Assembly (NCBI GenBank): GCA_030052745.1
Contig: JANBVO010000014.1
Coordinates: forward strand, 1 to 64,000
Reading direction: 5' to 3'
Length of the DNA stretch: 64,000 nucleotides
Source of the DNA: Pleurostoma richardsiae
Taxonomy: Eukaryota; Ascomycota; Sordariomycetes; Calosphaeriales; Pleurostomataceae
Positions 1 through 36,582 of the stretch are shown here, one piece after another. The translations under genes and the position numbers were made by a program. Position 1 is the first letter of the stretch; each line of letters begins with the position of its first letter. The notes below the pieces were generated by a model that searched no databases, had not been told where the DNA came from, and saw nothing but the letters and a program-made list of their open reading frames with translations.

Positions 1-2136
1 GGTCGTGTACTGCGGAGTCAACCTAAACGGTCTGTCCACTTTGATGACCTACCACCTCGCGCAATAACGGTCGATATACCTCCTAAAGGTAGGTCTAGGT
101 CCGCTGGGAAAGAGGCTGTAAGAGCTAAATCTACCGGGAAGGCGGCTGCAAAGGCCAAATCTAATGAAAAGGAGCCAAGGCGAGCTACTACCTCCAACAA
201 ACGCGCTATTTAAGGGGAGGAAAGTAGATCGTAGAAAGCAAAGAAAACGTCAACTAGAAGGGCTTTTTCTCGATCCCGTAACTTATCACGTCGGATACCG
301 ATATATAGTAGCCTAGAAGGGACCCCGGCTGTGGAAGAGGCCCCGGTTATGGAAAAAGCCCCTGAGATCGATCTCACTAACGAACCAAGCTCTCCAGCAG
401 AGGCAGGGTAATCCCTAGACCCTCCTAGGGAAGCTTTATCCCCCGGAGGTAATCCTAGGCCTATTAGTAGTAACGAGGATAATCTATTCCGTATACCATC
501 GCCGCCGCCAACGTAGCCCCGAGAAGTCGAAATAACTAGAAAGGCAACTATTATATAGACTGGCACGGTTAAAGGTATAAAGCCGCTATCGCCACTGACG
601 TTCCCTTAGATTATCCCCGACGGTAATCTCGAGCTTAAACTAAGCCTTAAATAGAAAGAGATAGCTAGCCAAACTAAAGTAATCGTTGACCGACTTATTA
701 GAGATAGCGAAGCTCGAATTAAACTTAAATAGACCGTAGTTACTGCTTATCGAAGAACCCGGCCTAATATATTAGACGCCAGATATTCAAACATTGTTTT
801 ACCTACTGCTACTAAGGATTTCGGAAGGCCTAATTTTAACGCTATCGTAAAGGCCTTCCTAGCCGGAGCTCCGCCATATTAGCTCCTATTGACGTTTAGT
901 TTCAAGCTAACGGCGTTGCCGAAAAAGACTACCCCTTATACGCCATCCGGGAGGTTTTTGGGTAATATTGAACAGCCGTTCACACCCTCTCTATCTCATC
1001 TTGCGAGACCTTCTATTGCCGGAACGCCAGACTCGGTACAACAAGAGGTCGAAAAGCTCTTCGCGCCTTTAACGTCAAAGAAGAGGTCGACTTCAGAGCA
1101 AATAACGGCCCAGCACACGCAAAAGACGATACTGACGAGAGACGCGTTTGCGGCCCTTCATAGGGAGAAATCGTGTTAAGACCCCTTCAGGTGCCGCAAC
1201 CACCCAGGGGCTAACGCAGGGGCCCCGGGCTATTATTACGTTAACCCCAAAAACGGCCGCCACTTGAAGATAAACCACAAAGACATAAAGCAGTAAGCAG
1301 AGGCTATATCTAACGGGCAAACGAGCCATAACAACCCCCCAGCGAATATTCTCATAAGAATTCTCCGAACTAAAATCGAAAGCCAACAGGGAGAAGATAA
1401 GGGCGCTAAGAGCGTAACCGGCCTCCCTAATCCGTTATTTAATCAAGAGGGACAAGGCCGAAGGAAAAGAAGTCGATATAAAGCTAGGACAAACGGTACG
1501 ATATATAATATCAACAACTTTTCCAGTATCGAGCTTCTTATCCAACAAAGCGTACAGTCAGCCTTTACTAGACTCTTCGCCGGCGGCCACAGGCCTCTTC
1601 TTCCAGCTCCGCAGCTCCCACCGTTGACGTCTATACCGTCTATTGCTTCCAATTACACTCCTTCTATTAGGCTCTTTCCTGCTAAAACTAGAGCCCCTTT
1701 AACTAGACCAGCGCCTGCAATAGGCGCTATAAGGAACCCACCAAAGCCGTTTATACTCCGGTCTTCTTCACCTATAATACCAGAAAGAGTAGACGTTAAC
1801 GGCCTAAGGCATAAATTCTTTCGGACTTTTCGACGGACCGAACTATTTGACTTGGCTCAAGTAGATGAAAGCAAACGGCTAGAATTAGCGTTAGAAACTG
1901 AAGGTATTCCGCTATCGAAACTAGACTCCTTACCAGATCCTTAGTTTTCGCGTAGGGATTTCGACTACTATTTCATTGAGACGCTCCGGACTTACTTTAA
2001 GCGCTTTATCGAAGCTAAACGGGTAACTATAAGTAACGAAAGAGCTATAACAACGCCAGTTAAAACTATAACGGATAATAGCAGCGGCCGAACTAAAGGT
2101 AGTTTAGCTAGGCTTAGTAAGAGTAAGTGCCCTTAA
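1..2136 (+). pseudogene. RIP-degraded long reading frame of unknown identity, 5' end outside window
   Basis: One reading frame (frame 1) can be followed from the left edge to about 2133 without any apparent frameshift. It is broken by roughly a dozen stops, for example near 211, 409, 514, 556, 607, 649, 730, 880, 1177, 1294 and 1942. All the stops I read are TAA or TAG and none is TGA, as expected if CAA/CAG codons lost C to T by repeat-induced point mutation. The DNA is visibly rich in TpA. The decoded protein is about 700 residues, with a Lys/Arg/Ser/Pro-rich disordered first half and a few more ordered stretches (the intact piece at 1624-1944 is 106 residues). I do not recognise the family. 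A structural (gag-like or ORF1-like) protein of a transposable element fits, but a duplicated host gene caught by RIP is equally possible. Confidence 0.55.
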
Positions 2137-2329
2137 GTGCCTAGATTTCAACTTTAGCAGTAATTTCCTCCGCTTTAACAACGTTTAACGTCGATTTAAC
2201 TCGTATAAGCTCTTAATCTAAGCTTTATACTTAATAGGCTAAAAGGGATTTATATTCGCAAGCTTATATACCTATAGAAGAAGAGGTAGTAGATATAAAA
2301 GTTAGTAAAAGTAACGCTATCTTTTACCT

Positions 2330-3436
2330 CCCTGTAGGTAATCTTAACTGCTTTCGTTCTAGTTATTTACCCTTTGATAGAGGCTATTACTCTTTTAATC
2401 TAGGCATTCGAGCCTTGCGAAAATAGCCTCGGATAACTTTACGGCGCGCAGATACTGCGTAGACGTAGTTAAGGAGGAATTGCCGCCACTCCTCGTCACA
2501 CGTCTAACTATCTGCCCGGTATTGGTAATAGTGCCGGATATATATCTTTAAGTCCTTAAAGAAAGCCTCGATTAGGTTAAAATCCAGGGAATACGGCGGT
2601 AAATATACCAACTTAACCCTATAGCCGTTATAAACGCCTCGGATTAGGTTATAGTAGTGGAACGATATATTATCTAGTACTAGGACAGATTTAAGCTCGG
2701 GAAATGGCGTTGTCTTAGGCAAAATACAGTCTCTAAGCTATAAGAAGAACCTCTAGGTATTTATACTATCTGTATATATAGCGACGGTTATTACACCTTC
2801 TAAGGCCAAAGCCGGGAAGATTTAATAGCAGCAACCGCGCCGTTCAAGAGCAACCTCTACCGAACTCAGCCCTCGGGGAGCCCAGCCCGTACGCCTCTTT
2901 CCATCACGTTTGTCGACCCCTAACTCGTCAAGAAAGACGAATTGGTCAAGCCTATAGTCTAATATCGAGTAAAGATATTAGCCTCGCAGCTCTTCGTTAC
3001 GTTCAAAAACTATCCGCTTAAACCTCTTGTTTATCCAGTCCACGACCTTTAAATGGCGGTAAATCGTAAATACATAGACCCGGAGACCAAACATTTCGTA
3101 TAGATACCACTACATTTCGTCTAAGTAGCGGTCGTTCTTTTCGCAAAGGACGTCAATGAACGCCTATATAGTAATTAGGGGGGTAAAACCATAGATTAAC
3201 TCCGTCCAGGAAACAGGACTACCCATTTCCATATATACGTTTATCAGTTTTTAGCTCCCTCTAAAACTTCGGAGAACAACTATCGAGCCAGTTATACCTT
3301 CCCGCTTACGAAAGATCTATACGTAACGAACAGTACAACCAGCCATCACGGAAATATCCTTGTTATTGAAGAGCTCGCTATATAGACAGACCTGGATAAG
3401 GGCCTTCTAGCTGCTTGTCAGCAGCCGGACCATGGC
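2330..3436 (-). mobile_element. RIP-inactivated Tc1/mariner-like (DD34E) transposase relic
   Basis: On the minus strand a single frame reads as a DDE transposase with TAG/TAA replacing glutamine codons at many points (for example 3407-3409 and 2504-2506). The catalytic triad is visible. The first Asp lies in FLDELGVDKRDG (about 2900-2940). The second is in LVLDNISFHYY. The Glu is in FNLIEAFFKDLK after the YLPPYS motif. The second Asp and the Glu are separated by 34 residues, the Tc1/mariner signature. The frame stays open without indels from about 3436 (candidate ATG of MVRLLTSS) to two adjacent stops near 2384-2389, and shortly beyond if those are RIP stops. Terminal inverted repeats and a TA duplication could not be placed by eye. 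The element is certainly inactive. Confidence 0.82.
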
Positions 3437-3495
3437 TTCAAGCCCACGGCCAGGTCCGCAATAGCCGACTACGCGTATAGAGAATAACCTCACGC

Positions 3496-4344
3496 TCAAC
3501 AGAGCCGAATTGGGCGAGAAACGCGTCTGGGAAGTCCAAAATATCGCGATTTTGGCGATATGAGGAATTGGGATGTGTGCGGGGAGATGAAAAAAGTGGG
3601 GGGCGAACACGAGCTTGCAATAGACAGTAGTCCAATGAGGAATTGCACCCCCATGGCAACGCCGTCAACGACCATGACCTCTCTCTCATTCATTTTCACG
3701 GCTTCGCTGCAGACCTGCTGCATCTCGGTCATACCAGCACAGCCAAGGCAAATGCAATCCGCACCCCTTTCAACCAACCTCCTCGCCGCTGCCACTAGCG
3801 CTACGTAGACCTCCTCCTTAGGCTTCGATTCCAGCTCGAGGACGCCGAGGTCGGAAGTCTCGCAGCCTGCGCTGAACGATCCCAGTCCGTAAGATAGCGC
3901 GATAGCATCCTCGTGCAGAAAACGTGATCGCTGCCCCGTCGTCACGATTCCCAGCCGGTCACCGCACATCCGGCTAGCATACAGGGCCGCCTCCATAATG
4001 CCGATAGCAGGCTGAGTGAACTCCTCTCGCAGCATAGGAATCAAGGGATGGGCGCTGAAGCAGGCGACCAGGAAGGCGTCAAATTTCTGTGACTTGGTCA
4101 TCAAAACCACAGATCGGAAGCAGTCTGCGGCGGACAGCACGGCATCGGCACGGCCTTCGATGGCAGACGGGGCCGAAGGTGGTGCGGTAAAGCCGTGCAC
4201 TGTGACCATGGGTGGGAGAGTTTCCCCGATACTGCGGAGACAGGCGGCCGTCATAGATGGTGTCGAGTTGGGGTTGATAAGGAGGATGGAGATCGGAGTG
4301 GTGCAGGCACCTGTTACCGACGGGAGGGTAGGGGCGGTATCCAT
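3496..4344 (-). CDS. Asp/Glu/hydantoin racemase family protein (DCG1-like)
   Basis: This is a 282-residue frame of the Asp/Glu/hydantoin racemase superfamily, which interconverts the two enantiomers of substrates such as 5-substituted hydantoins with two cysteines acting as acid and base. Both cysteines are present: C95 in VACFSAHP and C202 in CLGCAGM. The N-terminal ILLINPNST motif and the TTGQRS loop also fit. The yeast relative DCG1 sits in the allantoin (DAL) cluster. The neighbours are a hydantoinase-type gene and an N-carbamoyl-D-amino-acid hydrolase, which favours hydantoin racemase over glutamate racemase. The last roughly 40 residues after GVQFLIGLL do not look like the family. The true C-terminus may come from an unrecognised splice, or it may have been altered where the gene meets the RIP-mutated repeat about 60 bp downstream. 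Start chosen as the first in-frame ATG before ILLINPNST. Confidence 0.85.
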   Translation of the reverse strand: MDTAPTLPSVTGACTTPISILLINPNSTPSMTAACLRSIGETLPPMVTVHGFTAPPSAPSAIEGRADAVLSAADCFRSVVLMTKSQKFDAFLVACFSAHPLIPMLREEFTQPAIGIMEAALYASRMCGDRLGIVTTGQRSRFLHEDAIALSYGLGSFSAGCETSDLGVLELESKPKEEVYVALVAAARRLVERGADCICLGCAGMTEMQQVCSEAVKMNEREVMVVDGVAMGVQFLIGLLSIASSCSPPTFFISPHTSQFLISPKSRYFGLPRRVSRPIRLC

Positions 4345-5174
4345 GTCGCTATGTTCTCAAGTGCCACGCTTTCACGAGTATGGATGCTTCTACAGGTACA
4401 GGATTGTAACGTGAAAAGACGTCTCGTCACGCTGTCATCTATTAACAAGAAGTGGAGGCCGGCCGTATCTGAATGGTGGGACGAGCCCTTTAGAGTGCTG
4501 CCTTTCACTGTGGTAATGATAAGTGATAGCCGCCGAGCGGAGCCGGCCGCCTGGGCCATTCCGGTTAGCTAAGATGCAGTAAGCCTCGATATTGCCGCCC
4601 GGGAGCACGCTGCCTTTCTACTAAAATGAAGCCTTTAGCATACTGTTGTAAGACCATGAAATCGAGGTCGCAGAACGTGGGTTACAGGAACAATCACAGA
4701 TCCTGGCATGCTCTCATCGCAAGCTCGTTATTGGCCTTCAACTTCAGCTTCTCTAGCCGGAGGTCGCAAATGTTCAGGTATTTCTAAGGAACTCCTAAGT
4801 GTAAATTGCTATCGAACATCCGACATAATCATTTTCTTCTACTGTGTTTCCGCTTGATCATAAGAGCAAATGCGTGAGAGGCAATTAGCATTAGCAACCA
4901 TAGGGACGGGAAGGCAAGTAGCTAGCATTTGTAAGAGTTTGTTGCCACGGACAAAGTGAGAAATCCTCTTGAAACAACATACTCTACTTGTCATAAGCGG
5001 GCATGTGCCGAACTTGAATAAGCTAGCAGTGCGAATAAAGACAAGACTCGTTGTGTTGAGATAGAGAGGTCCCGCCTCATGCACCCATGTTGACTACATC
5101 TCATTTAATTGCAGAGTTGTCTGCCAGGATTACTGAGGCTTTCCGTTGTATAATCTGCCCTATTCTGGTGGCTC
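4345..5174. other. Intergenic, promoter of the racemase and 3' flank of the hydantoinase gene
   Basis: These 830 bases separate two genes that are both on the minus strand. I see no convincing coding frame: the open frames at 4195-4572 and 4839-5084 have no recognisable motif. The stretch should hold the racemase promoter next to 4345 and the 3' untranslated region and terminator of nothing else on the left side. Base composition is more AT-rich than the genes. I found no tRNA or repeat in it. Confidence 0.5.
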
Positions 5175-6928
5175 CTACATCCAGTAATCCCGTTCGCCAT
5201 CCATCATCCCCGTCGCTATTCTACCCATCTGCCCTGTCAGAATGGTAGACTTGCCTCTCCTCAAGTACTGTCCGTCACTCTTGCCACCCACAAGGCCGCC
5301 ACCGTCGCGATTCCACACCAGCTTACCCCTCAATAGCACCCGCCGCGGCCAGTTGCGCACCTCGACCCCTTCAAATGGGGTGTAGTCAATGCTGTGGTGA
5401 AGGCTGTCGTTCGTGATCTTGAACTTCCTCGGAGCTCCAGGATTTTCACCGCCATGTGCAGCCACCGCCACCGCGGATGGCTCCTCTGGATACCAGACAA
5501 CAATGTCTGCGTCGTACCCCGGAAGCAGGCTGCCCTTCCTATGGCTGAGTCCGTATAGCTTCGCCGGGTTCGTCGAGGTCAGCTCTACAAATCTCGGCAG
5601 TGAGATCCGGATTTTGTTGTTGCCCCGCTGCTGGTCGCCAATGTTTGGGTCGAAGGTCCTATCGAATATCAAGGGCAGCCGGGTTTCTATCCCCGGCAGG
5701 CCGTTGGGCACGTCTCTGAAGTCGGCATGTGCACATGCATGGGTAGCGCTCTCCCCGCTCTCAGCCATCCTTTTTGCTATGGCCTTTTTCTTCCCGCAGG
5801 GGTGGTCGAAGGTGCTCGGCGCATGATCGGAGCTGACGACGGTGAACGTTCCGTTGGCGAGGTTGAGCCACATCGCCTCGAGATCACGGGGGCTGTGACG
5901 TAGGGGTGGTGCGCATATGTTCTTCGCGCCTTCAACGTCGTGCTCTCCCGAGCGGAGGCGGTCGCTCAGCAGATAGAGATAGTGAGGACAGGTCTCGGCA
6001 TGGATAGGGAGCAGCCGCTGCTGGGCATCGTTGACGTGCTTGACCGCCTGTGGCGCCGACATGTGCACCAGCAATATTGGTGCGTCAGTGACCTCTGCTA
6101 AGCTGATGGCCCTGTAAGTGGCCTCGACCTCCGCGATCTGAGGGCGCGCCACGGAGTGGAAGAAAGTTCCAGTATTGCTGGCCTTGGACAAGTGTTTGGT
6201 GATCTGCTCGATGATGTCGCTGTTTTCGGCGTGGATCATCGTCGTGATGCCTAGGCTACGCGCCTTCATCATGATATTAAACAGGTCAGCATCTCCGAGT
6301 TTCATCGGCTCGTACGTCATGTACAGCTTGATACTAGAGATGCCTTCCTTCTCCACCAGCTCTGGCAGCTCCTTTTCCAACACATCCTCAGTGGGATTGG
6401 TTAGAATCACATGAAACCCATAATCACAGTACGCGTTTCCTGCGGCCTTCTTGTGATAACCACGCACCGCTGGCCATATGCTGTTTTCTGTTCGCTTCTG
6501 GGAGGCGAAAGCGATCACCGTGGTGTTGCCCCCAGCTAGGGCACTGCGAGAGCCGGCCTCCCAGTTGTCTCCCGTTGGAGAGTTCTCCTGCTCAATGTGT
6601 ACATGAGAGTCTACTCCACTACGTAGATTATTTGACGGTTAGTGACGGATGATCCGGGTCCGAGCCCCTCGCCGTGCCTAGTGACGTACCCCGGTGTGAT
6701 GTAGGCGCCCTCAGCATCTACGATCTGAGTCTCGGGGCCAACCTGCAGAGTCCGGCCGATGGCGGCGATCTTTCCGCCTTGTATTCCAATCTCCAGCCCG
6801 AAAGGGAGCACCTCCGTAGCTGTCACCTGCGGGTCCTTTGTCAGCTCCGGTCTGAAAACACCATTTTGATGATTAGATGAAGATGAGCTCCTCACTATGA
6901 GACCATTTTTGACAATGACGTCGAACAT
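5175..6928 (-). CDS. Dihydropyrimidinase / hydantoinase (PYD2-like), 2 exons
   Basis: This is a cyclic amidohydrolase that opens dihydropyrimidine or 5-substituted hydantoin rings to N-carbamoyl amino acids. Two exons (6690-6928 and 5175-6618) are joined over a 71-nt intron (GTACGT..GTAG). They give 560 residues, close to the fungal PYD2 length. Splicing restores the metal-binding motif GGVDSHVHIEQ. Metal ligands are visible: H85 and H87, the lysine to be carboxylated K177 (SIKLYMTY), H209 (MIHAENSD), H265 (LLVHMSA) and D344 (SSDHAPS). The C-terminal DYTPFEGVEVRNWPR stretch is typical. Start chosen at MFDVIVKNGLIV; an in-frame ATG at 6976 would add 16 residues. It shares a 650-bp divergent promoter with the carbamoylase at 7579, so the product can pass directly to that enzyme. 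Whether the substrate is dihydrouracil, a hydantoin or both cannot be told from sequence. Confidence 0.9.
6619..6689 (-). other. Intron of the dihydropyrimidinase/hydantoinase gene
   Basis: Donor GTACGT follows codon ..ITPG and acceptor CGTAG precedes the GVDSHVH codons. Removing these 71 bases joins two otherwise separate frames and creates the metal-binding HxH motif, so the call rests on both splice signals and protein continuity. A candidate branch site CACTAAC lies shortly before the acceptor. Confidence 0.88.
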
Positions 6929-7578
6929 GCTGTCTTTCTGTGATTGCTGTTGAAATCCGGAGGCCGAGTTCTTCAATCATTCAGGCATCACGGCCAGAGA
7001 GTAGGACTTAGTGGCCGCCAACCTATGGAATAGGCCTTGTGCACCTTATCCGAAGCCGCGGCCACGGCGATAACCTCAAGCTGTGAATATCCGAATGTCG
7101 GCCGCAACTCTTCGGGCACCTCCGATCGGAGACCATTCTGCTGAAGCCAATGGCATCCTGGCGGGCAAGCGATAAGCACGGCCAAGCATCAAGCATCTTC
7201 TGCTCGGCCGGCGCGATAAGACGGCGCCGCCTCTAACAGGTACGTTGGGATGATTTAGTGAGGCGGGCGGGGCAGGCTAAGCAGCACAATACGTGATCGG
7301 CTCATGAAGCCGAAGATGCCAGAGGATGGCCGGACATCGGAATGGCGCTCGCAGCGTCCGTTCGTCGGGCTTGAAATCGCCGGTGAGAATTATTCTGAAC
7401 TACAAGGAACCCATCCGCTCCTGTTGTAAGCACAACAACGGTGTTGACAGCGAACGTAGCCACCGTCTGGATCAAGAGAGCTTGACTGGCCAAGTCTGGT
7501 TATCGCGGTCTCCTCCCGCCCCCATCCCACACACTGGAAGTCTAGGAAAGAGGCGCAAGGAGTAATCCAAGTAACACA
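6929..7578. promoter_or_regulatory. Divergent promoter of hydantoinase and carbamoylase genes with GATA motifs
   Basis: This 650-bp region lies between two divergent catabolic genes. It contains CTTATC (GATAAG on minus) at 7045-7050, GATAA at 7069-7073, GATAAG at 7171-7176 and GATAAG at 7215-7220. AreA/NIT2-type GATA factors bind HGATAR sites, and two or more closely spaced sites are usual in nitrogen-catabolite-regulated promoters. Control of both genes by nitrogen supply is therefore likely, but this is inference. Short open frames here (6988-7185, 7302-7493) look fortuitous. Confidence 0.6.
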
Positions 7579-8676
7579 ATGACGGCCAACGGCACTTCGC
7601 CCCCTTCCCGGCGCTTCAAGGTCGCCGCGGCTCAGATGGGCGGCAACCAGCTGGCTGAGCCGCGACAACACGTACTGGAGCGGATGCTAAAGTTGCTGAA
7701 CGAGGCCGGCGAGGCTGGTGCAAAGTTGATCGTCTTCCCGGAACTGGCGCTGACCACCTTCTTCCCGCGGTGGCAGATTGACGACCCGGTGGAGAAAGCC
7801 AAGTTCTTTGAGCCCGAGTCGGCGGCGGAGCCGCACGCTATCCGGGACTCACCGAACGCGAAGCCCCTCTTCGACCGCGCCAGGACCCTCGGCATGGACG
7901 TGTACCTGGGCTACGCAGAGCGATGGACGGACGAGGCTGGTAAGACGACCGACTACAACACGACCGCGTACTACTCAGCCAGTGAGGACCGCATCATCAG
8001 CAAGTACCGCAAGGTGCATTTGCCGGGGACGAAGGAGCCGCTTCCGGACACCGGAAGGGGTGTGGAGCAGCAGTTAGAGAAGCGGTACTTCACGCCCGGC
8101 GACCTAGGATTCCAGGCCTTCCGGGCGCCAGGGCTGCTGGCGGGCGCAGTGAAGGTGGAGGATGGCGTGGACGCGGCCGCAACTGTGGGAAAGGGTGACC
8201 CGATCGTCGGAATGATGATCTGCAACGACAGGCGGTGGGCGGAGGCATGGCGAGCGTACGGCCTGCAAGGCGTGGAGCTGGTCCTGGAAGGTTACAACAC
8301 GACGGCGTGGGCGCCGCAGTATGATGGCACTGTCGAGGAGCAGGAGGCGGAGTCGCTGTTCCACCACTGGCTTTCGTGCCAGCACGGCAGCTACACCAAC
8401 GCGTGTTACAGCATCAACGTCGCCAAGTGCGGCAACGAGGACGGTGGGCTGCTGATCGCAGGGTCAGTCATCTACGATCCCGACGGCCACGAGGTCGCCA
8501 AGTCGAAGACGAAGGGCGACGAGCTGCTGGTCGCGGACATCGACCTGGCCAAGGTCCGACGAGGAAAGGAGAGGATCTTCGATATGGCGAGACACCGCCG
8601 TGTCGAGCACTATAAAATCCTAGTGGAGCAGACCGGGCCAAAGGAGCCGCCGTTGCTAAGCGGGAAGGGCAAATGA
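7579..8676 (+). CDS. N-carbamoyl-D-amino-acid hydrolase (nitrilase superfamily)
   Basis: This is a single-exon, 365-residue member of the carbon-nitrogen hydrolase superfamily. It cleaves N-carbamoyl amino acids to the amino acid, CO2 and ammonia. The catalytic triad is visible: E55 in VFPELALTTFFPRW, K145 in KYRKVHLPG and C215 in MMICNDRRWAEAWR. The CNDRRW motif, which in bacterial D-carbamoylases supplies residues holding the substrate carboxylate, together with GYNTTAW and the C-terminal ARHRRVEHY, points to the D-carbamoylase group. It does not look like an eukaryotic beta-ureidopropionase or Nit/amidase. Length exceeds bacterial D-carbamoylase (about 304 residues), partly through an insertion around residues 155-205. 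It diverges from the hydantoinase-type gene and so completes a racemase, hydantoinase and carbamoylase set. Start is the only ATG in frame before the conserved VAAAQMG strand. Confidence 0.9.
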   Translation: MTANGTSPPSRRFKVAAAQMGGNQLAEPRQHVLERMLKLLNEAGEAGAKLIVFPELALTTFFPRWQIDDPVEKAKFFEPESAAEPHAIRDSPNAKPLFDRARTLGMDVYLGYAERWTDEAGKTTDYNTTAYYSASEDRIISKYRKVHLPGTKEPLPDTGRGVEQQLEKRYFTPGDLGFQAFRAPGLLAGAVKVEDGVDAAATVGKGDPIVGMMICNDRRWAEAWRAYGLQGVELVLEGYNTTAWAPQYDGTVEEQEAESLFHHWLSCQHGSYTNACYSINVAKCGNEDGGLLIAGSVIYDPDGHEVAKSKTKGDELLVADIDLAKVRRGKERIFDMARHRRVEHYKILVEQTGPKEPPLLSGKGK

Positions 8677-8923: not shown

Positions 8924-11900
8924 TCAGCGGGCGGCTTGAGGAGCCGCCAGGCCGTTCTGCTGCTGCCCCCTCCGCACAATGTAGTCCCTGTTTTCAATCG
9001 TCACGCTCTTCGTCATATGGTTGACCTTGTACACTCCGACCAGTCTCGCGGCCAGCTCAAACATGTTGTTTCGCAACGAGATAACAATGAATTGCGCGTT
9101 CTTCGTCCTCTCCTTGATATAATTCGCAACGATGGAGACCTGTTTTCCCCCAAGTCAGCACTAGCCCTTCATCCATGACGGAGGAGTAGAAGTCATCAAC
9201 TTACATTCCGGAAGTCCAGCGCAGCGTCGATCTCGTCCATGACATACAGCGGTGTAGGCTTGTAGTGGTGAAGGGCAAAGACCAGTGCCAGACTGCTCAG
9301 TGTCTTCTCGCCACCAGACAAGTTGCTAATGTTCTTCCACGACTTCTTAGGCGGCATGACGCTGAAGAGGATGCCCTCGGAGAACGGGTCAAGCGAGTCG
9401 ACGAGTTCAAGCTCAGCATTGCCACCCATTGTGATCATCTGATACATCTCCTTGAGGCGAAGCGAGATGATGCTGAAGCCCTCCATGAAGCCTTCAAGCC
9501 GCATACGGCGAAGGTCATCGCAGCGCTTCTTCGCCGCATCGCGCTGAGCAACGGCGCTTGCGAGATCCGATGAGCGAGCTGCGTGCTCCTCGACTCGACG
9601 ACGGTACTCGGCCAGAACGCCGAGATCGACGTTGACGTTCTGCGTCTTTTCTTCCAGCAAAGCAATCTCGCCTTTCAGAGTCTCCTTGTTCATATCGGCA
9701 AGTTCATCCTTGCTATATTGGGGAAGTCGAAGAGCCGCTTTGCGGTTCCCGATGACCGTCGTCTCTGCCTCCTCGGGATCTCCCGTTGTGTCCCCGTGCG
9801 CCACTTCCGAGTTGTCTCCAGTGCCTGCGGTGTCATCCTGGGTCTGAACCTCGGCGTTTGATTTTGGTGCACTTCCTGCCTCGAGGTCGTTGATGTCCTG
9901 GAGGACAAGCTTGGACAGCTTATCTTCCCAGTAGCGGAGTCGTTTCTGATTCTCGACCAGGACCTTCTGGTTTTCCTCGAGCTTGTTGCGCATCTCAATC
10001 TCAACTGCCCGTGTCTCATTTAGCTCGGCTGTCTTCTCGTCCAATTCTGCTTTCAGCTGGGCCAGCTCTTGCTTCTTGACGGATAGACCTTCCTGGGCTT
10101 CCTCCACTCGGCTTCTAAATGACTCTGCCTTGTCACCCTGGTTCTGGATCTCCTGCTCAAGCTTATTGAGCTCGCGAACAGCAGCGTCAAGATCTTTCGT
10201 GGCCTTGGCGTGATCCTTCTCCAGCTTTGCCTTCTGCTTTTCGGTCTTGACCTTCTTGACCTCCGCGTTCGACGTCTCCTCGTTTTGAGATGCAATCTCC
10301 TCCTTGAGCGAATCGACCTTCTGCTTTTGTGCTCGGAGTTTCTCGCCGCCAACTTCCATGATCTTGTCCTGCAAAGCCTTGATCTCGTCCTCAACAGTGG
10401 CTGTTTCGCCATGGAGCTTCTCGACCTCTTTGTTGAGTTTGGCGACCTCTTTCTCCAGAACAAGATTACGGCTGTCGTCCGTCTTGGAGGGCTGGTGTTC
10501 CTTGCTGAGCTCCTTGATGCGGCGCTGAGCATCAGCCAGATTCCTCGAAGCGCTTTCGATCTCAAGGTTGAGCTTTTGCATCTTGGTCTCCAGCTTGGGG
10601 ATCTGGTCCGTCAGCTGCCGGAGCTTGGTCTCCTGCTCCCGTTGATACTCTTGAAACTCCTGGAACTTCTGCTCCAGTGCCTCGAGGTCGGTCTCAAGCT
10701 TGCCGACTTGCTCCTTGGTGACGCCTGCGACGAGTTTGGATGACATCAAACCCTTCTTCTTCGAGGTGCCACCTCCAGACATGGTACCAGACTTGTCGAT
10801 CAATTCTCCGTCAAGCGTAACAACTCGCCATCGCCTGGCGCCATATGCAATCCTATTCGCCTGGGCCAGGTCATTGGCGACCAGCGTGTCCTGGAGAGCG
10901 TGGTAGAAAGCGGGCCGGAAGCGTTCCTCCTTAGCCTGTATCAGGTCGAACAGCCGTGGAGCATTCTCTGGTGTCTGAATGGGAGACATGTCACGGGCAC
11001 GAAGCTTGTCCAGGCACATGAAATTGCCGCGCCCCAGATTCGTCTTCCGGAGGTATTCGATGCATTGCTGGCCGGCCTCGACGGTATCGGTGACGAAGTT
11101 GTCGAGGGCACCGCATGCAGTGGATATGGCGACATCGTACTTCTGGTCGATCGTTCCCAGGTTGCCAAGACGGCCATGGAAACCATCGATACGGCCAGAC
11201 TCCTTCATGCGCATCAAGGCCGTCAGGACATTGCCCTGGGTCTGGGTCGCCGACAGGTTAGACCGAGCCTCATCTGTCTTTTGACGAGAGTTCGAGAGCT
11301 TAGCTCTCCACTTGGGTTCCTGCTGAGAAAGTGTGTCGAGCTCCGCCTCGGCATTCCGCGCTTCCTGCTCCAGCTCGGCCTTCTCGGCCTGGCATGCCTT
11401 CAATTCTTCCTGCTTGGCCGCACGGCTCTCCTCAATGGCGGCCATCTTTGCCTGCATCTCTTCGAGGGCCACGGCTCCAGCATTGGCCTTCTCCCTGAGA
11501 ATTGACATCTCACTCTCGGCAACGGCGATGGCGGACTGCTTCTGGTTGATCTTTTCCTTCCATGGTTCGAGCGATTTCTGTTTCGCGGCGATCTGGTCGG
11601 AATATGCTTGAGTTTTGCCCTTGAGGTTCTCCCGGATGTTGCCGAGCTGAGCTTCCTCGTCCTTCAGCTGCTGTTCAAGGGTTGCGATCTCCTGGGCGCG
11701 GGATTCGATCTCCTCAGCGCATCGTCGGATGGTCTCCTCGCCCTCGGAAGCTGCAGCTTCGGCGTTCGCAATCGTCTTCTCGAGCTTCTTGCGCTTGTCT
11801 GACAGGAATTTGCGCTTCTCGTCGAACTTGACGCGTTCCTGTTCGAACTTGGCCATCTCCTTGGCCAAGGCCTGGGTTTCCTTCTCCTGCGCCTCATATT

Positions 11901-13473
11901 CCTTACTACTCTTGGAATACGTCTTCTGCAGCTGCTTGATGACTTGCTCACTGCCATTGTGCTTCTCGAGCTCGTCGTCCAGTTGTGCCTGCATCTGGCC
12001 GATCGCCTCTTCGGTTACGGCCAGATTGTCGTTGCATTCGCTAATGTACAGCTGATACAAGGCGGACTGCTTCATAGCCAGCTCGTTTTCGTCACGGATA
12101 TACGCAACAGCCTTCTCTTTTTTGTCTTCAAGGCTGTTCTTCTCCTTTTCGACATGCTGGACGCGACCGCTCTTCTCCATGCATACCTCATTGAGGGTCT
12201 CAACCTCGTTGGCGGACTCCTCAATCGGAGCCTTGTACTTAGATGTTCCTATGATATCCTCTAGGTACTCCAGCAGGCCATCTTCGTGCTCGTTCGCAGC
12301 TTTCGGTTTCATTTGCGCGATGGACTCGACCTCACCCTGGAGAATGAGAAAGCGCTTATGATCTAGGTCGACACCGCGCTCGCGCAGCAGTGTCGTGACC
12401 GTCGTGAAGTTGGAGGTCTTGCCGTTGATGTAGTACGTGCTCGAGTTGTTCCGGAATGCCTTGCGTGAGATCACCAGATCGGAATCAGGAATAACAGTAT
12501 GGCCACCACCCCCGGGCTGGAATTCACTCTGTCAGCTCGATGGACTAGTATGAAACCAGGAAGGCAGTGAAGGGGAACTTACCTGGTCCATGACTTCCTG
12601 GAAGTGAACGGCGACCTCACAATAGTCAAGGCTGGGATACTGCGCCGAGTTGTGAATCAAGGCAGACAGCTTTCCCTGTCTCATCTTGCTGGCACGGAAT
12701 CCAAAGACGAACAGCAGGGAGTCAATGACGTTGGACTTGCCAGAACCGTTGGGACCAACCACCGAGGAAAAGGATGCGTGAAAGGGCCCAACTTCCTGGA
12801 CGCCAGCATAGCTCTTGAAGTTCGTGAGGATAAGGTAGGTAATAACGATGCGGGCCTTTGGTGCTGAGTCTTCCACGATAGGCACGGTCATGGTGCGCGA
12901 CTTGAGGACGATATCCATGGGCTTTTCCAGGATCGTGTCCAAGGGCTTGACGGGCTTGACGGCCAGCAGCGTCTCGTCTGGAGACCGCCGCTGCTCGTTG
13001 ACGCCAGATATAGTGATGTCAGCGAGAGGAGTGTGAAGCTCTGCAGGCTCGGGGGAAGCAGACGGCTTGGGAGTAGGCAATGGCGGTTCTAAATCCGGGG
13101 CCGTGGGCGTCGACGCCTTCGTGGCTCGCGGTGCTACACTCTTCCTCTTCCTGGGGGACGCCTTCTTCACCGGTTCCTCTGCCTCCGCAATCGCTGTCTG
13201 GTTCTCCGGGTCGAAGTTTTCGCTCGGTTCGGCTATAGAAGCTGCGACGCTCTTCCTCGGCCTGCCAGGCCTCCGCGGCGTCGTCGGGGCTACATCGCTT
13301 GCTGTCGTCCTTCGTCTTCCGGCGGTAGACTTGCGCGGACTCCTAGAGGGCGCTGGCGCAAAATCATCTTCGCTATCCTCGGCGACCTTCTGGTTGTCGT
13401 CCATCATCTCATCGTCGGAGTCGACAACAACCTGCCGGCGCGTCGCAACGCGACGAGATTGTCGCGTGGCCAT
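8924..13473 (-). CDS. SMC4: Condensin subunit SMC4, 3 exons
   Basis: This is the structural maintenance of chromosomes ATPase of condensin, acting in the nucleus in mitotic chromosome compaction. Exons are 12583-13473, 9205-12516 and 8924-9139, with introns of 66 and 65 nt, giving 1472 residues. The N-terminus is a long basic/acidic disordered tail with PRRPGRPRK. It is followed by the head with Walker A (GPNGSGKSNVID), a coiled coil, a hinge (around GFHGRLGNLGTID to ..SGTMSGGGTSKKKG), the second coiled coil, the signature LSGGEKTLSSLAL and Walker B LYVMDEIDAALDFRN. An acidic insert near residues 1160-1230 breaks the second coil. Splicing supplies PGGGGHTVIPDS at the first junction and the C-terminal NMFELAARLVGVYK block at the second. 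Start chosen at MATRQSRR, which opens the conserved basic tail; an upstream in-frame ATG at 13521 is less likely. Confidence 0.95.
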
Positions 13474-13950
13474 GGCGCAAGTAGAGAAAAGGGTATGGTC
13501 GCAAAAAAGAGGATGAAGCAATCACCAAAGGAAGTTCAAAGAGCACGATATGTCACCTGTTGTCTGGTTTGAAAGAGGGCGCTACTGTTCCGCAACTCTG
13601 CAGCACTTTGACGATGGGAGTGTTTGTTTGTGGGCGCGGACTGCCGTGTTGCTCCCATCCCCCACTGTTGACTTTGGATCGGCCGGTTTGTAAACAAACG
13701 CGAGCCACACCTGCAAGCCACGCGGAAAACGCGCTAGTTAGGTACGTAGGTACTGTACCTGTCGTATGCCCCCCACCTCCAACTTCCACGGCCTCGAGAA
13801 ATGCATATTGAATTCAATTCGCAAATTCTTTGCATTTTCGGATCCATTCAACTAACGGTGGCTCTGTATCCCCAAACCTTCATCGGATCCGCAAATTGTA
13901 CTCGGTACAGTGCGGCTGCCCTCTTTCTGTGAAGCAAGACCCAGAGAGAT
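13474..13950. promoter_or_regulatory. Divergent promoter between SMC4 and the ELYS-domain gene
   Basis: This 477-bp spacer lies between two divergent housekeeping genes. It contains a cluster of GGTAC units at 13738-13760 that includes the perfect 11-nt palindrome GGTACTGTACC at 13749-13759. The same palindrome recurs in the VPS41/APC1 divergent promoter at 56623-56633. No coding frame is convincing. Confidence 0.5.
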
Positions 13951-33954: not shown

Positions 33955-35154
33955 GATTGATGCAATGGAGATGTCCCTAAACCTAGGCTGGAAAGCAGAA
34001 GAGCACTGGATGTGGATTCGCCTTCGATCCCAGTCTTCCCAGATGTGAGGCAGAGCTCGAGGAATAGAGCGTCGTCACATTACATGGACGAGGATTTCTT
34101 ATTGATTCAATGTTGTTTCCCGCACCTCGAACGACCCCTCACGCTCCTTTCCCCTCTCCATTCCAGCAGGTTGGTTGATGTCTTGCCCCGAGATTCCCGT
34201 TCGGCTTTTCGCGGTCCAAGCCTTCTTTTGCGTTTGGCGAGTCCTTTTGGCTTTGTCTGTCGGCGCCTCCGCACCTAGCCTAGGCATTCGCTGCCGCTCG
34301 ATGATGTCGACGTATTTCCCCTCTCGAAACGAGTGATCAGCTGAACGGAACAACATTGACAAGGTGGCGGCTAGTCGCGGAGGGTGCTATTGTTTCGCTG
34401 TGTATAGTTCCCTTACCTCTTCCTCCAGCGGCAACCTCATTGATGTCACAGGTGAGAAATGCCATGCAACTGATGCTGGATTATGACAGTGCTTGAAATG
34501 GCCTGGGTCCCCGTCCGTGCCGGCGTCGCCGGCGCAATGGCTGACTCGAGAAGTGCAATGAGCGAGGTAGTACCACGCAGCATACTGCGACGGTGTGCGC
34601 GGTCCTGTTTCATTTTCGGACTTGATTCCCGTGATGGCCTACGGTTCACCTTCACACAGCTTCTGCACAGCGGAACCCGTATTGCTGTGCATGTGCTGAC
34701 GTGGACTCCGGAGTGTGCAGACCGGAGATGTCCATGCATGGCCCGAAACACAGCTCCGACGGCTGAGTCTAAAGCTCTTGATGCAAGATGAGATTCTGGT
34801 CAAGAATGCCACGACAGATAGACAAATATGCCATCTCCGGTGTAAGTAGGAGACTTCGCAACCCAGTCCGGGCTGGGAAAGGGGATATGTACGAGCTCCG
34901 CCCGCCGGCGGCATCGCATTCCGAGATCGGGCGTCGGAGGACGCGGAGGAAAGGCGGGGCGAGTTTGTTATCTCTCGGAGTGGGTGCCGTGTGTGGTGAG
35001 CAGCCCGCTCATCTTACTACATCGACTCAACAAGTACTACACCTCGCCAGTGAGTTCTTCACTTCATGTATGCTCTGCTTCGTCACTCCAACAGACCCTC
35101 GAAAGCCACACACAGGGAAACATCGGCTATCAACAACAGTGGCACTTCCTAGAC
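33955..35154. promoter_or_regulatory. Divergent intergenic region between P450 and guanine deaminase
   Basis: This is a 1.2-kb spacer between divergent genes. A TTATCT (AGATAA on minus) near 34967-34972 is a possible GATA-factor site about 185 bp before the deaminase ATG. Open frames here (34099-34362 minus, 34483-34791 plus, 34639-34914 minus) show no family features. The deaminase frame extends upstream to 34984, but that part has no homology features. Confidence 0.45.
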
Positions 35155-36582
35155 ATGGGTCGACCACTTCTGTTCCATGGAGGCGTGGTGCATTCGCTTT
35201 CTCTGACCGAGTTGGAGGTGCTGACCAGTGCTCTCCTAGTCGTCGACCGCGACGGTCGGATTATCCTCTTTGAGAAAGATGTGGCGTCAAACACCGTCAA
35301 GGCCATTCTAGAGGGGAAACAGATAGGAAGTGATGCTTTTGGCGTTCCTCAAGACTTGATCAATCGCGTCTTCAACGCCGTCTACGGCATCCACGACATA
35401 TCAGCCACATTCTTGTCTCCCGGGGAGTTCTTGATGCCGGGTTTTGTCGACACCCACAATCACGCTCCGCAGTGGGCGATGCGTGGGCTCGGACAAGGCC
35501 TGCACATTCTAGACTGGCTGGATCAAGTCACATTTCCCAGCGAGGCGCGCTTCAGTGACCCCGAATATGCGCGAGTCGTATACGACGACTGTGTTCGAGG
35601 GTTCCTCCGCCAGGGCATCACCACCGCCTCATATTATGGCTCGATGCACGGCGAAGCTACGAGAATACTTGCTGACACCTGCCTCCGCAGAGGCCAGCGA
35701 GCTCTGGTCGGGAAGTGCAACATGGACCGCAACGCCCCGGACTACTACAAAGACACCGATGCCCAGGAGTCCCTGAGGGAAACTCACGCATGTATCGAAC
35801 ACATCCGCACTATCGACCCCAAGTATGACCTACTCCGGCCGGTACTCACACCACGCTTCGCCATCACCTGCACACCAGAGCTGCTCAGGGGCCTCGGCGA
35901 CATAGCAAAAGCCAATCCTGACCTACCCATCCAGACGCACTTCGACGAGGCGGAGCAAGAGACCCGGGCAACAAAGGAGCTGTTTCCCGAGTTCGCCCAC
36001 GAGGCCCAGTTGTACGAACATTTCGGTCTCCTCGGGCCTCGAAGCATCCTGGCCCACTGCACCGTTATCACTGACCGCGAGAAGGACACACTGAAGCAGC
36101 TGCGCTGTGGCGTGGCACACTGCCCCATTGCTAATATGACGGTAGGCGGCGGGTTCATGGCCGCGCCAGTCCGGGACTTCATACGGAGGGGCATCAAGGT
36201 CGGGCTCGGTACCGACAGCGGTGGCGGGTTCTCGAGCAGCATGCTAGACTCAATCCGGCAGACCTTCATCGCTTCTAACGCCAGGGAGGTGACCAGCGCG
36301 GGGTTAGACAAGGCGCTGTCGCTTGAGGAGGGTTTCTATCTCGCCACCCTGGGCGGAGCTGCCGTTTGTGGGCTGGAGGACAGGGTTGGCAACTTCGCTG
36401 TCGGAAAGGAGCTTGATGCTCTGTGGGTCAGGACAACGGGGAGGTACAGGGGCATCATGACCACGGTGCGGGAGGAAGACGGCCTCAGGACGGTCTTTGA
36501 AAAGTTTGTCATGACGGGAGACGATAGGAACATTAGCGAAGTGTTTATCAAGGGGGTTACAGTAAAAGAGGTAGAGGCATGA
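35155..36582 (+). CDS. Guanine deaminase (amidohydrolase superfamily)
   Basis: This enzyme hydrolyses guanine to xanthine and ammonia, feeding purine catabolism in the cytosol. It is single exon, 475 residues, close to the family length. Zinc-site motifs are intact: PGFVDTHNHAPQ (HxH), the strand-5 histidine in IQTHFDEAEQE, the histidine of ILAHCTVITDRE and the aspartate of GLGTDSGGG. The substrate-loop GKCNMDRNAPDYYKD also fits guanine deaminases. Many family members read H-I/L-S-E at the strand-5 site; HFDE here is a small variation. Start chosen at MGRPLLFHGG because the 57 residues upstream to the ATG at 34984 look like untranslated sequence. It lies about 1.2 kb from a Dal5-type permease gene, with which it is convergent. 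Confidence 0.92.
   Translation: MGRPLLFHGGVVHSLSLTELEVLTSALLVVDRDGRIILFEKDVASNTVKAILEGKQIGSDAFGVPQDLINRVFNAVYGIHDISATFLSPGEFLMPGFVDTHNHAPQWAMRGLGQGLHILDWLDQVTFPSEARFSDPEYARVVYDDCVRGFLRQGITTASYYGSMHGEATRILADTCLRRGQRALVGKCNMDRNAPDYYKDTDAQESLRETHACIEHIRTIDPKYDLLRPVLTPRFAITCTPELLRGLGDIAKANPDLPIQTHFDEAEQETRATKELFPEFAHEAQLYEHFGLLGPRSILAHCTVITDREKDTLKQLRCGVAHCPIANMTVGGGFMAAPVRDFIRRGIKVGLGTDSGGGFSSSMLDSIRQTFIASNAREVTSAGLDKALSLEEGFYLATLGGAAVCGLEDRVGNFAVGKELDALWVRTTGRYRGIMTTVREEDGLRTVFEKFVMTGDDRNISEVFIKGVTVKEVEA

Follow-up and report, generated by a model that had tools for sequence, protein, structure and literature searches.

Within a window of 64,000 nucleotides from the 39.4-Mb genome of the ascomycete Pleurostoma richardsiae (the whole stretch analysed, taken from contig JANBVO010000014.1, here C43), three consecutive genes encode an Asp/Glu/hydantoin racemase, an amidohydrolase of the D-hydantoinase/dihydropyrimidinase type and a nitrilase-fold enzyme of the N-carbamoyl-D-amino-acid hydrolase (D-carbamoylase) type. 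Judged from sequence, this trio is rather likely to belong to a fungal hydantoin-catabolic cluster that the genome carries in two copies and that would convert a 5-substituted hydantoin via an N-carbamoyl-D-amino acid and a D-amino acid into a 2-oxo acid and ammonia. In the proposed pathway, an NCS1-family permease, encoded beside two related clusters of the genome (on contigs C1 and C83), would import the 5-substituted hydantoin, the racemase would interconvert its two forms as a putative hydantoin racemase (EC 5.1.99.5), and the amidohydrolase, a member of the PYD2 family, would open the ring to yield the N-carbamoyl-D-amino acid. The nitrilase-fold enzyme would remove the carbamoyl group, giving the D-amino acid, CO2 and NH3, and a D-amino-acid oxidase encoded near the trio of contig C1 would turn the D-amino acid into the 2-oxo acid with further release of NH3, the pathway as a whole presumably serving nitrogen supply. 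Here, we infer the substrate class, the stereochemistry, the order of the steps and the nitrogen regulation from genes with their catalytic residues, a linkage that is duplicated in the genome, permease, regulator and oxidase neighbours, and a racemase gene that is split.

On C43, the racemase and amidohydrolase genes lie on the minus strand and the nitrilase-fold gene on the plus strand; no other convincing gene was found between them when the window frames of at least 100 amino acids (aa) were inspected. All three give Pfam matches well beyond chance level (PF01177, 174.5 bits against a cut-off of 31; PF01979, 77.4 against 25; PF00795, 144.5 against 23.2). The racemase carries both catalytic cysteines (C95 and C202), the amidohydrolase, 560 aa long after splicing, has the complete set of dinuclear metal ligands (HxH, Lys, His, His and Asp, namely H85, H87, K177, H209, H265 and D344), and the nitrilase-fold enzyme has the triad E55, K145 and C215 together with the CNDRRW motif. 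An original prediction made from the letters of the window had named these genes, their families, all of these residues and the adjacency of the trio, and each of these was borne out, the residues by a check of the translations. Its description of the racemase as an ordinary gene ending at 3496 has to be given up, since native coding stops at about 3629 and positions 3629-3496 are transposon sequence.

A second trio with the same order and orientation is located on contig C1 (1.060-1.067 Mb; racemase and amidohydrolase minus, carbamoylase plus). Its products are 68.9% (racemase, over 235 aa), 67.9% (amidohydrolase, over 564 aa) and 64% (carbamoylase) identical to those of the window, and its racemase frame is uninterrupted. 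Next to the C1 trio lie a permease of the NCS1 family and a fungal transcription factor recognised by PF04082 (89.3 bits), whose Zn2Cys6 domain falls narrowly short of its cut-off (20.0 against 21 bits). Past this regulator, a D-amino-acid oxidase is found, its stitched protein matching residues 26-363 of the 388 of 7ct4 (E 7.7e-66). By its sequence, this nearly full-length oxidase fits a reading in terms of D-amino acids. On contig C83, a carbamoylase (51%) and an amidohydrolase (50%, blastp) stand side by side next to an NCS1 permease; PF01177 had no reported match on this contig, which leaves a set without a racemase, and the NCS1 fragment had no solved-structure match at E 1e-3. Clustering of these families thus occurs at more than one place, in the trios of C43 and C1 and the pair of C83. 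Each of the three genes of D-carbamoylase type that were found has a neighbouring amidohydrolase of the same clade, and two of them also have a racemase. Because of the second trio and the related pair, the linkage is not due to chance and is conserved within the genome, and the finding is better supported than the original prediction because the trio occurs a second time, near a D-amino-acid oxidase gene.

Genes annotated as N-carbamoyl-D-amino-acid hydrolase are common in filamentous fungi. For the window enzyme, hydrolases of this kind fill the first 11 places among the PDB matches (E 3.3e-70 to 1.4e-63) and the next match stands at E 1.8e-9, the value also obtained for 3ivz, the sole structure labelled beta-ureidopropionase. 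The predicted D-carbamoylase is thereby upheld, and by PDB score the enzyme does not group with non-carbamoylase amidases; D-specific hydrolysis of N-carbamoyl-alpha-amino acids is proposed as its activity. No carbamoylase relative was found in the viral contigs searched. Bacterial relatives were taken as the best 80 of at least 584 loci (L075-L154), using scan patterns that required [QEV][QH]LEKRYF or [LM][IL]CNDRRW, and neighbours were sought up to 10 kb on each side, with an amidohydrolase at E <=1e-60 counted as strong and a racemase accepted at E <=1e-5. These relatives are 42-49% identical to the fungal carbamoylase, so a recent transfer is not seen. A strong amidohydrolase is present at 19 of the 80 loci, a racemase at 42 and both at 17, counts that come from mutually related rows and from contigs that, where short, can hide neighbours. 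The bacterial enzymes can be typed by the residue before LEKRYF (position 144) as His or Gln, with two of the 80 lacking the motif and falling outside this typing. In the carbamoylase tree, from which 26 of the 80 loci were omitted as Bradyrhizobium near-copies, the three fungal enzymes group together (98/94) and are separate from both the His clade (98/99) and the Gln rows. Four non-carbamoylase rows were badly aligned in this tree (branches of 8-10, not on one side of any branch), so the separation of the nitrilase from other amidases is taken from the PDB scores and not from the tree.

The best PDB match of the window amidohydrolase is the dihydropyrimidinase 2fty, which we take to be PYD2 of Lachancea kluyveri (38.6% identity, same fungal clade), and D-hydantoinases come next. 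The three clustered amidohydrolases, from the window, C1 and C83, make up a subclade (100/99) within the fungal clade. A lone PYD2-like amidohydrolase is located on contig C50 with no carbamoylase beside it. In addition, genes of the M20 hydantoinase/carbamylase family, which may be PYD3-like, are found on C65 and C69 (above the TIGR01879 cut-off) and as pieces on C50 (each below it), and a search for dihydropyrimidine dehydrogenase identified no such enzyme, giving two DHO_dh matches, the second within a 344-aa frame.

Tree comparisons and the approximately unbiased (AU) test bear on the origin of the cluster. Two amidohydrolase trees were computed, the second omitting 16 of the 37 rows of the first and adding four, and the racemase tree takes 21 of the 42 bacterial racemases; bacterial rows are mostly tblastn-matched stretches and not whole proteins. 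Joining the clustered amidohydrolases with the bacterial carbamoylase-linked ones was rejected (p 0.00026), as was joining them with the racemase-linked enzymes of Azospirillum and Paraburkholderia (p 3.7e-8) and joining the window and C1 racemases with those of hydantoinase-linked loci (p 0.0001). These tests used groups that were named after the trees had been seen and a limited bacterial sampling, they have the long-branch problems of the model in common, and the source genome is the one filamentous fungus in the comparison. Because trees and AU tests separate amidohydrolase and racemase from the bacterial hydantoinase-linked enzymes, the fungal cluster was probably put together piece by piece; its arrival as a complete bacterial hydantoinase operon is rejected on the p values for the amidohydrolase (0.00026) and the racemase (0.0001). 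On plasmids of Azospirillum and Paraburkholderia (L155:5240-7431 and L156:3253-6174), a racemase-family gene adjoins the bacterial amidohydrolase that, of all those compared, most closely resembles the fungal enzymes, and a fungal racemase encoded on C73 is about 51% identical to these plasmid racemases.

The 3' part of the window racemase gene is interrupted by a Tc1/mariner-like element that bears mutations resembling repeat-induced point mutation (RIP), and base 1 of the window, which is also the first base of C43, lies within this transposon. Positions 3400-3629 are repeated across the genome: in a comparison of window 3400-3720 with the genome (40 scored matches of 46 candidates), all 39 non-self matches break off within 3629-3635, most of them (31) at 3629 or 3630. 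Paired, inverted end matches lie about 4.05 kb apart, the length of the element, on C13, C44 and C1. One stop-free piece of the transposon matches DDE_3 (PF13358, E 3.9e-13), and its RIP-like dinucleotide indices are 1.58/0.62 versus 0.62/1.23 in window 9001-64000. At the start of contig C109, a matching transposon terminus is followed by DNA that encodes the remaining C-terminus of the racemase, similar to the C1 copy, so C43 and C109 are neighbours through the transposon. With its racemase gene broken up, the window copy is a less likely carrier of the intact pathway than the C1 copy. A motif search run with no positive control found the C-terminal tail motif in none of the 42 racemases beside bacterial carbamoylases; loss of the tail therefore need not inactivate the enzyme, and tail loss was rejected as proof of inactivity.

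At least 11 other contig ends lie in the same transposon terminus (starts of C109, C130, C17, C86, C9 and C3; ends of C43, C57, C84, C93 and C122), so contig ends in this assembly often mark transposon breaks. On C109, a membrane dipeptidase (PF01244) and an MFS transporter are encoded beside the detached racemase 3' end (L074:756-1661 and 2702-4533), and a link of these two to the use of D-amino acids or ureides is only a guess. A D-amino-acid-oxidase relative (30-37%) is found at C109:74510-75532, about 75 kb past the other half of the racemase.

GATA sites are elements of nitrogen control. The divergent promoter between the window amidohydrolase and carbamoylase holds three GATAAG sites versus 0.22 expected from base shuffles, and none of the 84 control tiles of 650 bases from window 9001-64000 contains three or more. 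Summed over seven intergenic stretches of the three clusters, 10 sites were counted versus 2.04 expected. These sites hint that the clusters may be under nitrogen control.

Several observations weigh against a hydantoin pathway. With regard to the amidohydrolase, the fungal enzymes including 2fty form one clade (97/98 in the second tree, 92/83 in the first), that is, the PYD2 family. Additionally, the cut-off of TIGR02033 (393.25) is narrowly missed by the window enzyme (388.8) and passed by those of C1 (401.7) and C83 (399.0), and that of PRK13404 (NF009941; 647) is reached by none of the three (490.2, 513.4 and 514.7, respectively), an Azospirillum relative scoring 812. Such an enzyme could be the dihydropyrimidinase (PYD2) of a reductive pyrimidine or beta-amino-acid pathway, with the nitrilase as beta-ureidopropionase and the racemase acting on a side substrate, and two further points would suit this explanation: 2fty is the best PDB match, and the AU test rejects neither a split of the clustered amidohydrolases before nor one after the C50 and 2fty genes (p 0.135 and 0.432). 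The match of the nitrilase to D-carbamoylases at E 3e-70, compared with E 1.8e-9 to 3ivz, the existence of a separate PYD2-like gene on C50 and of M20 genes at other loci, and the lack of an evident place for a racemase and a D-amino-acid oxidase nevertheless make the pyrimidine pathway unlikely. The outcome for the amidohydrolase itself is divided: it belongs to the PYD2 family and M20 genes lie elsewhere, on C65, C69 and the C50 pieces, yet the genome has the separate, lone PYD2-like gene of C50. With respect to the carbamoylase, His144, named among the ligand-interacting residues of D-carbamoylases in a passage of PMC11503299, is replaced by Gln in the window and C1 enzymes and kept in that of C83. 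In bacteria, a strong amidohydrolase adjoins none of the 56 Gln-type versus 19 of the 22 His-type loci, a split seen in a sample that is biased by the required motif patterns. The bacterial Gln144 type may thus act on another substrate despite its annotation as N-carbamoyl-D-amino-acid hydrolase. For the window and C1 enzymes, Gln144 is a warning that another side chain may be preferred; it would not place them in the bacterial Gln group, as the fungal clade stands apart. Beside one Gln-type carbamoylase, an amidohydrolase (L088:8120-9520) scores 521 bits, with a cut-off of 600, to the hydantoin-5-propionate amidohydrolase ErtD of ergothioneine utilisation.

The racemase provides a further counter-argument. 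Its closest PDB matches are the allantoin racemase 5lfd and then a putative hydantoin racemase, it is about 30% identical to 5lfd and 3qvj, and in the tree the window and C1 enzymes are near these allantoin racemases (95/79), nearer than to the racemases of bacterial hydantoinase loci. The trio might accordingly be regarded as a branch of allantoin or purine breakdown, comparable to the yeast DAL cluster, which in the part of PMC3646786 consulted holds an allantoinase, a permease and DCG1, called an allantoin racemase. This explanation appears very improbable: a grouping of the window and C1 enzymes with just 5lfd and 3qvj was marginally rejected (p 0.045), the window amidohydrolase remains below the cut-off of the allantoinase model TIGR03178 (208.8 versus 357.85 bits), no allantoicase or ureidoglycolate enzyme was recognised among the frames read beside the trios, which were scanned in part, and allantoin breakdown does not account for a D-carbamoylase or a D-amino-acid oxidase. 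The interrupted racemase also leads to a reading that is compatible with a hydantoin pathway on C1, namely that the window copy is a decaying duplicate with no present function, whatever C1 does. The uninterrupted racemase frame and the additional neighbours of the C1 trio agree with such decay; on the other side, the window amidohydrolase and carbamoylase are intact and keep all named catalytic residues, the tail motif searched for is absent from all 42 racemases beside bacterial carbamoylases, so that loss of the tail need not inactivate the enzyme, and the C1 racemase could complete the window trio. Decay of the window copy is possible but doubtful.

The surroundings of the clusters also speak in part against a hydantoin pathway. 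An oxygenase-like gene separates racemase and amidohydrolase on C1, no NCS1 permease was reported in the first 9 kb of C109 past the transposon (the nearest is at 40.8 kb), and the divergent promoter of C1 has no GATAAG site and no long motif in common with that of the window, the words common to both not being clearly above shuffles (10-mers, 2 versus 1.13; 9-mers, 8 versus 4.85). The genome is rich in NCS1 permeases (91 exon-level matches) and D-amino-acid-oxidase relatives (nine loci, grouped from 17 matches), so that finding one of them next to a cluster is by itself of little weight; recurrence of the permease family at two clusters counts for more. The oxygenase-like gene of C1 (L038:9480 to L039:783) is of the 2-oxoglutarate/iron type, with the ethylene/succinate-forming enzyme as best PDB match (E 3e-46). 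Overall, a hydantoin-catabolic cluster is retained as the preferred reading. As for the original interpretation, the families, the D-carbamoylase and the linkage stand; the intact window trio was lost to the transposon in the racemase, and a D-hydantoinase of bacterial type by descent to the PYD2 membership of the amidohydrolase (trees; AU p 0.00026). A more far-reaching version, which we put forward tentatively as quite possible, would be that a eukaryote built its own route from hydantoin to D-amino acid to 2-oxo acid, in which a duplicated amidohydrolase of the PYD2 family, a racemase resembling allantoin racemases and a D-carbamoylase were joined in a cluster with a permease, a regulator and a D-amino-acid oxidase, independently of the bacterial operon.

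Features of the trio and its transposon in the window (positions in the window; strand given where the feature has one)
Feature	Positions	Strand	Basis
Tc1/mariner-like transposon, right part	1..3629		repeat with paired ends; DDE_3 match; RIP-like indices
Asp/Glu/hydantoin racemase, native part	3630..4344	-	PF01177; C95 and C202; start at 4344; frame continues into the transposon to 3496
Amidohydrolase (D-hydantoinase/dihydropyrimidinase-type), exon 2 with stop	5175..6618	-	family scores, residues, PDB match
Amidohydrolase GT..AG intron, 71 bases	6619..6689	-	spliced protein aligns across the junction to 2fty
Amidohydrolase exon 1 with start codon	6690..6928	-	frame and splicing
Divergent promoter of amidohydrolase and carbamoylase	6929..7578		three GATAAG sites: 7045 (minus), 7171 and 7215 (plus)
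N-carbamoyl-D-amino-acid hydrolase-type nitrilase, single exon, 365 aa	7579..8676	+	residues, PF00795, PDB matches

Other genes of the window include a large coiled-coil protein next to the carbamoylase (9196-13521), which by eye resembles an SMC condensin subunit, an open reading frame that covers the C-terminal portion of a cytochrome P450 (32094-33053; PF00067) and a further gene of the amidohydrolase family (34930-36579; PF01979) that by eye resembles guanine deaminase.

The bacterial hydantoinase process has industrial uses, and the natural substrates of its enzymes are, to our knowledge, poorly known. The bacterial three-enzyme process has been reviewed (PMC7431475, consulted in part). 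According to passages of a 2016 survey, Asp/Glu/hydantoin racemases and D-amino-acid oxidases were repeatedly transferred into fungi, mostly plant-associated ones, and the role of the racemases is called unknown, with no obvious role for one such racemase in Candida glabrata; the words 'hydantoinase' and 'carbamoyl' are absent from its main text (PMC5169069). In the part of PMC12735256 consulted, just a hydantoinase/oxoprolinase domain is mentioned, and among the matches listed from the open-licence literature (titles, beginnings of abstracts and passages), a fungal cluster of racemase, hydantoinase and carbamoylase is not described. Proximity of a D-amino-acid oxidase to a fungal cluster would link the hydantoin pathway to nitrogen catabolism and, if the more far-reaching version holds, such clusters would give a role to the racemases and oxidases that plant-associated fungi have repeatedly acquired. 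One answer to the question of that role, and one open to direct testing, would be a racemase that acts on hydantoins and not on amino acids.

Compared with known systems, the window carbamoylase resembles the N-carbamoyl-D-amino-acid hydrolases 6le2 and 1erz in its Cys-Glu-Lys triad, its CNDRRW motif and a match over most of its length, whereas the fungal enzymes differ from both by forming their own clade, by Gln in place of His144 in two of the three copies and by extra residues before the CNDRRW strand. The racemase belongs to the same two-cysteine Asp_Glu_race family as the allantoin and hydantoin racemases 5lfd and 3qvj and yeast DCG1 (likened by family and with no sequence comparison for DCG1); it is not linked to an allantoinase. 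In comparison with 2fty, the window amidohydrolase is linked to a D-carbamoylase and a racemase and is separate from the PYD2-like gene of C50. The NCS1-family permeases beside the C1 and C83 clusters are, at the family level, like the hydantoin permease Mhp1, described in a passage of PMC4195764 as an NCS1 protein that imports 5-aryl hydantoins. Finally, bacterial hydantoinase operons cluster the same three enzyme families, with all three at 17 of the 80 carbamoylase loci, and the fungal set differs from them in its introns, its fungal regulator, its other lineages of amidohydrolase and racemase (AU p 0.00026 and 0.0001) and the D-amino-acid oxidase near the C1 trio.

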